Positions 22,798 through 34,543 of a stretch of DNA of 36,289 nt are shown here, piece by piece (within the stretch, counting starts at the first letter, position 1; each line of letters starts with the position of its first letter). Under the pieces are notes generated by a model that was not told the origin of the DNA, made no database searches, and saw only the letters and a list, made by a program, of their open reading frames with translations. A program made the position numbers and the translations under genes. Origin of the DNA: an uncultured Bacteroidia bacterium. GTDB taxonomy: Bacteria; Bacteroidota; Bacteroidia; Bacteroidales; Prolixibacteraceae. The DNA lies in NCBI GenBank assembly GCA_903854235.1, contig CAINVV010000112.1:1-36289 (forward strand). Reading direction: 5' to 3'.

Positions 22798-23899
22798 CTA
22801 ATCCCTCTTTTCTCGCTCCGAAAACTCCATCAAAAATGCCTTGATGAATCCGTCAATGTCGCCATCCATCACGGCTTGTACATTGGATGTTTCAAAATCG
22901 GTACGGTTGTCTTTCACCAGCTTGTAGGGCTGCATTACATACGAGCGTATCTGTGAACCCCATTCAATCTTCATTTTAGTCGCCTCCAGTTTGGTCTGGG
23001 CCTCCATTCTTTTCCGAAGTTCCATTTCATACAATTGGGATTTCAGCAACCGGATGGCATTTTCCTTGTTTTGTAGCTGTGAGCGAGATTCCGTATTCTC
23101 GATGATGATCCCGGAAGGAGCATGCTTTAGCCTTACTCCGGTCTCCACCTTGTTGACATTCTGTCCTCCTGCTCCGCCGGACCGGAAGGTGTCCCAGGAT
23201 ATATCGCCGGGGTTGACCTCAATTTCAATGGTATCATCCACCAACGGAGAGACGAAAACGGAGGTGAAGGAGGTCTGGCGCTTGCCCTGTGCATTGAAAG
23301 GAGAGATCCTGACCAGCCTGTGCACACCATTCTCACTCTTGAGGTATCCATAGGCAAAATCGCCTTCAATCTCCAGCGTAACACTCTTAACCCCAACATC
23401 TTCTCCAGGAAGAAAGCTGGCTTCTCTTACCGTATATTTGTGTTTTTCCGCCCAGCGCAGATACATCCGCATCAGCATATCGGCCCAGTCGTTCGACTCC
23501 GTTCCGCCGGCACCCGCATTTATTTTTAAGACGGCTCCCAGACGGTCCTCTTCCCTTCTGAGCATATTCTTCGTCTCCAGGTCCTCAATGGCAGTCCGGG
23601 CCTCCGTAAAATGGCTCTCTACTTCCGCATCAGTGGCTTCACCGGCTTCACTGAATTCAAAAATAACCTGTAGCTCCTCGACCATGTTGTTGACGGTACT
23701 GAAACCATCCGTCCACTGTTTGATGGTTCGAATCAGCCGCATATGGGCTTCTGCCTCTTTGGGATTGCCCCAGAACTCCGGATCCTGGGTTTTTAGCTCC
23801 TCCTCCTCTACTCGGATAAGTTTACTATCGATGTCAAAGATACCTCCTCAGCGCATCCCGGCGCTCAACTAGCTCTTTGAGTTGCTCTTTCAATATCAT
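22798..23899 (-). CDS. prfB: Peptide chain release factor 2, programmed +1 frameshift
   Basis: RF2 releases finished proteins at UGA and UAA. The gene starts at the ATG at 23899 (MILKEQLKELVERRDALRRYL), meets an in-frame UGA at 23836-23834, and continues in the +1 frame from 23835 (DIDSKLIRVEEEELKTQDPE...). The sum is 21 + 345 = 366 residues, the normal RF2 length. The later ATG at 23742 is internal and would lose 52 residues. The SPF stop-codon recognition tripeptide lies at ~199-201 (RISPFNAQGKRQTSF) and the catalytic GGQ at ~244-246 (SGGAGGQNVNK). Frameshifting at the early UGA lets RF2 regulate its own level. A -7 box lies 31 bases upstream of the start. Confidence 0.97.
23833..23848 (-). 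promoter_or_regulatory. prfB: prfB +1 frameshift site with internal Shine-Dalgarno
   Basis: On the minus strand AGG AGG TAT CTT TGA C: a full Shine-Dalgarno hexamer, then the slippery CTT and the in-frame UGA followed by C. The spacing and the TAT CTT TGA C core are the same as in the classic E. coli site. The zero frame ends at TGA (23836-23834); the +1 frame resumes with GAC at 23835-23833. Confidence 0.96.
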
Positions 23900-23929
23900 G
23901 GCTGTTGCGGTTATGTTAAACGTTGCGCA

Positions 23930-23937
23930 AAGGTAAG
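23930..23937 (-). promoter_or_regulatory. -7 box for prfB
   Basis: The minus strand reads TACCTTTG followed by CGC, an exact TAnnTTTG match, 30 bases upstream of the prfB ATG. A TTG lies upstream with 25 bases between, slightly longer than the preferred spacing, so it may or may not be the -33 element. Confidence 0.5.
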
Positions 23938-24083
23938 AATTAATGTGGTTGACGGAGGGTCAATGTCTGATGGTGTGATTTACGACAAACGATATCGGCT
24001 AATCGTTATCAAGCCGCGCTGCCGAGAAATAAGGAGAACCTCCTTCCACCATAACCAAACAGGATTCTTTCCGTATTGAACTC

Positions 24084-33757: not shown

Positions 33758-34234
33758 ATGAATTTGCAAACCAAGATCACGGATTTTCTTTTTCGCCGAC
33801 AAAAATTGCTCGGTATGATCATCGTATTCCTTTTCTTATCCCTCGTAGCTTTTCGATTTGACAGCCAAACTGTTAGTTTGATCTGGAACGACTATCCTGC
33901 CATTGCCCTTGCCATCGCCCTGATCATTTCCGTATTTACTTTTACCTGGTTGAAACTTGAAAAACGAAAAACACAATCCTTGATCCACGACCTGCAAAAC
34001 TTGCTTGCGAGACAGCATGGGACCACAAACAGCAAACTGGATGAACTAAGCAACCGACAAAAAGAGGTTTTCGATCTGATTCTCGAGGGAAAGTCTAACA
34101 AGGAAATAATGGCAAAACTGCACATCGAGCAAAGCACCCTTAAAACCCACATCAATCAGCTCTACAAAATCCTTGAAATCAAAAATCGAAAAGAGGTTAA
34201 ACGAATTGATAAAGAATTAATTAAAAAGCACTAA
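33758..34234 (+). CDS. Membrane-anchored LuxR-type HTH protein
   Basis: About 158 residues from the ATG at 33758 (MNLQTKITDFLF); a GTG three codons upstream is also open. Two membrane helices at the N-terminus (KLLGMIIVFLFLSLVAF and PAIALAIALIISVFTFTWL) are joined by a short loop FDSQTVSLIWNDY, followed by a basic/coiled stretch and a C-terminal LuxR/GerE helix-turn-helix (LSNRQKEVFDLILEGKSNKE, then TLKTHINQLYKILEIKNRKE). There is no receiver or PAS domain. It therefore looks like a DNA-binding protein held at the inner membrane, sensing through the two helices. The next small gene resembles its membrane half. Confidence 0.85.
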   Translation: MNLQTKITDFLFRRQKLLGMIIVFLFLSLVAFRFDSQTVSLIWNDYPAIALAIALIISVFTFTWLKLEKRKTQSLIHDLQNLLARQHGTTNSKLDELSNRQKEVFDLILEGKSNKEIMAKLHIEQSTLKTHINQLYKILEIKNRKEVKRIDKELIKKH

Positions 34235-34339
34235 ACCCACATTCAACCCTCTGCTCCACCCTTTTTCAACCCCAAATATTTTTTATCTGATGATTTTCGT
34301 CTGTAAGCTTGTATCGTTAATCAATAAAAACAATTTCAG

Positions 34340-34543
34340 ATGAAAAGGAAAAAACTTTGGATGAGTGCAACACTGATGTGTGGTTTCTGCGCAATAGCAT
34401 TTACTTTTGACAACCACGGGATTTACTGGCTCTGGGCCGATGCTCGTCCTGCCGCCTGGATTCTGCTGATGGCCACGATGCTCTTTGGAGCGATGTGGTA
34501 CGCTTCTGCAAAAAATGGAAAAGAAAGACAAACCCGATCCTGA
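34340..34543 (+). CDS. Small two-helix membrane protein resembling the LuxR membrane domain
   Basis: A 67-residue protein: basic start MKRKK, a first helix (LWMSATLMCGFCAIAF), a loop TFDNHGIYWLWADAR, a second helix (PAAWILLMATMLFGAMWYA) and a basic tail (KNGKERQTRS). The loop and flanks line up with the preceding LuxR protein: AF.FD, six residues, W.D, then PA entering helix 2, in both. The HTH is absent. It may be a paralogous partner or antagonist, or share an unrecognised family of two-helix membrane domains. Its 3' end overlaps the following acetyltransferase by 29 bases, so the two are probably translationally coupled. Confidence 0.75.
   Translation: MKRKKLWMSATLMCGFCAIAFTFDNHGIYWLWADARPAAWILLMATMLFGAMWYASAKNGKERQTRS

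Follow-up and report, generated by a model that had tools for sequence, protein, structure and literature searches.

The window, i.e. the whole stretch of 36,289 nt that was analysed, carries on its forward strand a luxR-type regulator gene at 33758 to 34234. The encoded protein of 158 aa is built from two membrane helices connected by a short loop, a long helix and a C-terminal GerE domain. Hydropathy analysis gives two hydrophobic stretches, with peaks at residues 16–32 for helix 1 (33803 to 33853) and at residues 49–65 for helix 2 (33902 to 33952). The AlphaFold2 model, which is of moderate confidence (pLDDT 71.7), shows a helix at residues 3–29, a short beta hairpin at 32–41 and a continuous helix at 47–94 that reaches the helix-turn-helix, with a 17-residue loop separating the modelled helices. 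The inter-helix loop FRFD...IWNDYP (residues 32–47, 33851 to 33898), in which the modelled beta hairpin lies, is conserved in the small partner described below. Since the modelled helix 47–94 is continuous, its membrane part, helix 2, could serve as a direct lever between the membrane and the DNA-binding domain.

The LuxR-type DNA-binding domain (GerE) is found at 34043 to 34198 (residues 96–147; PF00196, E 1.3e-12). Above the Pfam cut-off the regulator only matches DNA-binding families, namely GerE and, marginally, Sigma70_r4_2, and no Pfam match to an autoinducer-binding domain was retrieved up to E 1. According to Pfam and AlphaFold2, residues 1–95 are taken up by the hairpin and the ensuing helix. 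An initial annotation of this DNA, made by eye, had described a LuxR protein at this position with two N-terminal membrane helices and no further sensory domain; hydropathy and AlphaFold2 agree with the former, and the Pfam result with the latter.

The partner gene (34340 to 34543, forward strand) starts 105 bp beyond the end of luxR and its 3' end runs into a GNAT gene whose ATG is at 34515. It encodes a stand-alone two-helix membrane hairpin of 67 aa, with two hydrophobic stretches in the hydropathy profile. In its AlphaFold2 model, again of moderate confidence (pLDDT 63.8), helices 3–24 and 36–66 are joined by an 11-residue loop and make up the protein otherwise, in line with the shared topology noticed by the initial annotation. 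None of the Pfam families matches the partner above the cut-off, and PF13858 is absent even among the weak matches. NCBIfam gave no match for the partner of the window, and across ten members of the partner alignment the best E was 0.014, in one member; among solved structures, the best match to the small-protein profile has an E of 0.58. The partner has no PADLOC match either, and the five PADLOC families matched by the regulator all fall on the stretch containing its helix-turn-helix; a link to defence systems was set aside on these grounds.

Homology of the two hairpins

The two membrane segments were compared as profiles, using a small-protein profile of 10 rows (A5) and a LuxR-hairpin profile of 11 rows (A7). 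By hhalign they match at 98.0% with an E of 2.5e-13, and with three rows each the match still stands at 96% (E 1.5e-9). The window pair alone matches weakly (E 0.32), so that it is the relatives that settle the homology. In whole-genome searches, the small-protein profile recovers the regulator hairpins of several relatives (G218 at E 1.6e-8, G202 at 3.8e-6 and G380 at 3.1e-5) as well as that of the window's own regulator (E 6.7e-4). Used as an HMM on ten LuxR hairpins, it scores 23.7–42.3 bits, compared to at most 5.0 bits for the same ten reversed and at most 18.5 bits for 500 residue-class-preserving shuffles. Two control comparisons with other hairpins remained at 0.3% (the LuxR hairpin against the hairpin of another two-helix LuxR group) and 0.2% (the small protein against the N-terminus of DUF4199).

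At the level of sequence profiles, the partner hairpin is homologous to the hairpin of the regulator. That two hydrophobic hairpins should merely look alike by chance would suit the poor score of the window pair taken alone, but the profile-profile match, the reversed and shuffled controls, the unrelated hairpins and the co-occurrence of the two genes rule this out as extremely improbable. The similarity that the initial annotation had seen by eye is therefore upheld, whereas its loop signature stands in part: W.D and PA are shared, but seven rather than six residues separate FD from W, and D and PA lie one residue further apart in the small protein than in the regulator. The partner and regulator hairpins also diverge in step (r 0.78 over ten pairs, a value reached by 2 of 20000 permutations with kinship uncontrolled), which is also expected from shared descent alone.

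Distribution of the pair

Of 393 genomes from the order, 7 carry the regulator clade according to searches with a LuxR profile; among 395 genomes from the phylum, 5 carry it, at six loci. As the genome of the window (G000) is counted in both samples, this amounts to 12 distinct regulator loci. The clade is sharply bounded in the phylum search, with all members at E 9.5e-47 or better and the next protein at 2.1e-21. Genomes were sampled at one per species and many are draft MAGs; in the first pass over the large samples, up to 9 (A8) or 15 (A1, A5) candidates were scored per genome. When all candidates were scored in the four genomes of the order of G435, the same four loci in three genomes were obtained.

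A same-strand partner adjoins the regulator at 11 of the 12 loci. It is a single hairpin downstream of luxR at six of them (G000, G154, G202, G218, G380 and one locus of G435), a four-helix protein downstream at three (G430, G440 and the second locus of G435) and a four-helix protein upstream at two (G198 and G447). At the twelfth locus (G294), no partner or element lies within 4.8 kb, but upstream of luxR the contig runs out after about 210 nt. Five further pair loci came to light when the small protein was used as the query (G002, G007, L093, L094 and L096), bringing the total to 16; L092, being almost identical to L091, was left uncounted, and L090, L091, L095 and L097 repeat G154, G380, G002 and G007. 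Locus L096 is labelled Marinimicrobia and lies on a 23-kb MAG contig, which may be misbinned.

The initial annotation had raised the question whether both proteins always occur together. Starting from the small protein, the regulator was present at all five places that reached E 1e-20 among the 393 genomes sampled from the order, and at all eight loci on GTDB contigs, five of which are repeats or near-repeats of G154, G380, G002 and G007. Co-occurrence thus holds from both sides. The one clear exception is G671, where an unmistakable small protein (E 1.4e-13) has neither a LuxR of the clade nor the element within 15 kb. This orphan suggests that the hairpin may serve some function by itself. 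The orphan (L129/L199) is located downstream of a gene that, by eye, is flavohaemoglobin-like.

Matches of A5 in G665 (an anti-sigma-like protein), G667 and G746 (short hairpin proteins), with E values of 2e-6 to 2e-4, were excluded as members; no LuxR of the module clade is present at these loci, and the matches may be distant relatives or chance. In G665 (L131), the two-helix part matched by the small-protein profile (E 2.1e-6) belongs to a protein with, by eye, an anti-sigma-like N-terminus, which adjoins an ECF-type sigma factor.

The four-helix partners match the small-protein profile at 76% (E 2.2e-5) across their first hairpin and the regulator hairpins at 54% (both by hhalign). Judged by these comparisons, they are weak relatives of the small protein, with a first half resembling the single hairpin. 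Since the profile matches are weak and confined to the first hairpin, an origin from two hairpins is likely, though short of proven.

Flanking genes differ among most of the loci examined, so luxR and its partner are taken as the unit, and GNAT, OmdA or other neighbours were ruled out as members on the same basis. The window and G002 both carry an OmdA-type gene upstream of the module. At L136 and L065, the partner directly precedes luxR in an operon-like manner. In three loci of one genus (L130, L132 and L134), a conserved gene that looks TPR-like by eye ends at the luxR start. Elsewhere in the window, at about 23680 to 24010 on the reverse strand, lies a gene named by eye as release factor 2, with what appears to be the usual programmed +1 frameshift: the short frame ends in CTTTGAC after AGGAGG, and the main frame comes next.

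A conserved element upstream of the partner gene

Between the two genes of the window, a candidate operator of three direct half-sites, TCAACC-N6-TCCACC-N5-TCAACC, is located at 34243 to 34271 on the forward strand (half-sites at 34243–34248, 34255–34260 and 34266–34271). It is followed on the same strand by a -7-like box, TAAGCTTG (34304 to 34311), whose first base lies 38 bp beyond that of the third half-site. The -7 element of Bacteroidota has the consensus TAnnTTTG, from which this box differs by one mismatch.

All 16 loci have, upstream of the partner, between two and four TCMACC-like half-sites that fit [T/C]C[A/C/G][A/G]CC, at a spacing of 10–13 bp, mostly 12 and then 11, and in 14 of the 16 the array occupies the gap from luxR to the partner. 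A stricter three-site scan also retrieves 14 of the 16 loci, the exceptions being L096 with two sites and L138 with four, one of which is degenerate. Over ten single-hairpin loci, the array scores 22, compared to a mean of 0.057 for 1000 dinucleotide shuffles, none of which reached 22. The distance to the promoter-like box is fixed as well: at 15 of the 16 loci a box with at most one mismatch to TAnnTTTG begins 38–39 bp after the third half-site begins, where single-base shuffles predict 0.34 loci. For L061 and L138, the fourth half-site in the array was chosen by hand as the reference for this distance, and without both the count is 13 of 14. Of the five four-helix loci, four also have an inverted half-site (GGTKGA) that begins 14 nt ahead of the first half-site, which creates a palindrome. 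In L094, a long inverted repeat, perfect by eye and terminator-like, is placed between luxR and the half-site array and would separate the transcripts of luxR and the partner.

Upstream of luxR, ten loci were free of any CMACC array over 200 nt, or over about 33 nt in one case. Of the 25 other LuxR loci scanned, DUF4199 pairs included, none has the three-site array, and in 147 loci without regulator or small protein (450,376 bases, partly overlapping) the scan gave two matches, both at loci that had been retrieved by the pattern itself. Across 257 genomes of the order, the strict form of the element occurs three times, each time at the module (once each in G000, G154 and G218); the reversed control also occurs three times, elsewhere (G054, G131 and G195). 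As the control is equally frequent, it is the place of the strict element that counts as evidence, and not its number. G198 and G202, the other regulator genomes concerned within these 257, have arrays that depart from the strict form. In the genome of the window, the mismatch-free three-site pattern occurs nowhere but at the module; of seven genomes with the pair, five have it at the module, while G202 and G007 each have one copy elsewhere.

When up to one mismatch is allowed, three-site matches in the genome of the window are about equally common in the forward pattern and the reversed control (6 versus 4). Perfect TCAACC pairs occur four times elsewhere in this genome and once for the reversed control; the array of the window is missing from these pairs because its middle site is TCCACC. 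All four lie within long reading frames, and they were rejected as further targets of the regulator. To the observation of the initial annotation, the element adds a putative regulatory link between luxR and its partner.

A possible membrane switch and its relation to known systems

Half-sites that are spaced by one helical turn and lie directly ahead of the promoter box are where activators sit. Because the half-sites at the module have this activator-like position and the partner repeats the helix-loop-helix of the regulator, we infer that the regulator activates the partner gene and is in turn gated by the product. In addition, one operator plan serves both single-hairpin and four-helix partners in genomes that are distant within the phylum, which makes the regulator the likely reader of the site. 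Together, luxR and its partner could form a two-gene membrane feedback switch, a reading that we give an even chance. The regulator would be anchored in the inner membrane by its two-helix hairpin, with helix 2 extending as one long helix to the LuxR-type DNA-binding domain in the cytoplasm. It would bind the TCMACC-like half-sites, which recur about once per helical turn and directly precede the -33 region in the partner promoter, and thereby activate the partner gene. With its matching helices and the FxFD...W.W loop, the partner would then take its place next to the regulator, giving mixed complexes that are unable to dimerise productively on DNA, and would keep the switch steady at a set point until the balance is shifted by a signal from the membrane or envelope. 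Titration or gating of the regulator through such pairing had been put forward as a possibility by the initial annotation. The steps differ in strength: binding of the element by the LuxR of the module is very probable and activation of the partner is probable, while pairing of the two proteins is somewhat favoured and inhibition of the regulator by the partner might equally turn out true or false.

The same circuit could also run with the opposite sign, the partner being a co-sensor or stabiliser, as ToxS is for ToxR, within a positive loop. Adjacency, homology and the element would fit this equally well, and according to PMC9214523, ToxS is thought to shield ToxR from degradation and chaperone-like roles have been proposed for TcpP/TcpH. 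However, the partners of the ToxR superfamily described there have a lipocalin-like periplasmic domain (PMC9214523), whereas here only an anchor-related hairpin is present, and an array that is placed between luxR and the partner in 14 of 16 loci, and before luxR itself in none of ten, fits feedback a little better than a constant subunit; we regard a stabilising partner as rather unlikely. The partner might instead be an effector acting on the envelope, with the regulator sensing the same membrane state through a related hairpin and without direct contact. Since the strict element was found solely in front of the partner (at three of three places), the partner looks like the main output, and the orphan of G671 and the operon-like order at L136 and L065 point in the same direction. 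Such an effector would leave unexplained why a regulator and its target retain related hairpins that diverge in step, and is considered unlikely.

A membrane-active toxin or peptide checked by the tethered regulator, comparable to a toxin-antitoxin pair, would account for a small hydrophobic product, a two-gene unit and a patchy distribution (7 of 393 genomes). Against it, the half-sites are located upstream of the promoter box, at an activator's position, rather than over the box; moreover, the partner is without a PADLOC match, and its conserved loop and N-terminus argue for a specific fold, making a toxin very unlikely. If the feedback switch is taken further, the module may stand for a whole family of closed membrane circuits. 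In each of these, the target of the tethered regulator would essentially be a single protein, a relative of its own anchor that lacks the DNA-binding domain, and mixing with this relative in the membrane would gate the regulator, giving a bacterial microprotein loop in the membrane. The module would be a portable two-gene cassette carried across the Bacteroidota, with its own operator and with one- and two-hairpin versions of the partner; this broader proposal is tentative, with its chances somewhat below even.

In the co-component systems ToxR/ToxS, VtrA/VtrC and TcpP/TcpH, a membrane-tethered transcription factor is encoded beside a membrane partner (PMC9214523). The module is like them in that the tethered regulator adjoins a membrane partner, with a one-step path from membrane to promoter. 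As characterised in PMC9214523, co-component systems combine a CadC-like N-terminal DNA-binding domain and one membrane helix with a periplasmic sensor domain and a lipocalin-like partner. None of this was found in the module: its GerE domain is C-terminal, there are two membrane helices, a periplasmic domain is absent and the partner is a relative of the regulator's own hairpin. By analogy, the module would work like a co-component system while lacking those features of one that can be tested from sequence or models. The main text of PMC9214523 contains 0 occurrences of LuxR, and no published description of the module was found among the matches listed (titles and abstract starts, with subscription journals mostly outside the coverage). 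Going by PMC9214523 in part and by general background, tethered regulators that have a membrane partner are best described in Vibrio and enteric bacteria. If the feedback switch is true, the Bacteroidota would have a solution unrelated to these, made from very small parts: two helices that sense and gate, one DNA-binding domain and one operator. The conserved element offers a ready reporter, and signal transfer from a hairpin to a DNA-binding domain becomes directly testable with the module.

Quorum-sensing LuxR proteins carry their GerE DNA-binding domain at the C-terminus. The regulator shares this domain and belongs to LuxR/GerE by its PF00196 match, but it has a membrane hairpin in place of an autoinducer-binding domain. 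Microproteins, for their part, titrate transcription factors through a shared domain. Like these, the partner retains one domain of the regulator without the DNA-binding one; unlike these, the shared part is a membrane hairpin and the setting bacterial, and titration here would be a presumed role.

A separate arrangement in the Bacteroidota consists of a two-helix LuxR protein followed by a four-helix protein of about 180 aa, with 15 of 19 loci alike by eye (L146, L149–L152, L154, L156–L161, L163, L167 and L168). Two of these four-helix proteins were checked by Pfam and both are DUF4199; within the library searched, literature joining DUF4199 with LuxR was not found. The DUF4199 pairs resemble the module in having a two-helix LuxR protein of about 140–180 aa with an adjoining membrane protein. 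They differ in that their LuxR hairpins are without profile similarity to those of the module (0.3%) and in that the three-site element is missing from the 25 other LuxR loci scanned, these pairs among them, while the module partner has no PF13858 match and A5 compares with the DUF4199 N-terminus at 0.2%; DUF4199 hairpins are thus unsupported as relatives of the module hairpin. Within the separate arrangement, the LuxR protein and the four-helix protein resemble each other in their first helices, both of which begin with MKK..L.YG (55%, E 1.2e-4, across 19 columns).
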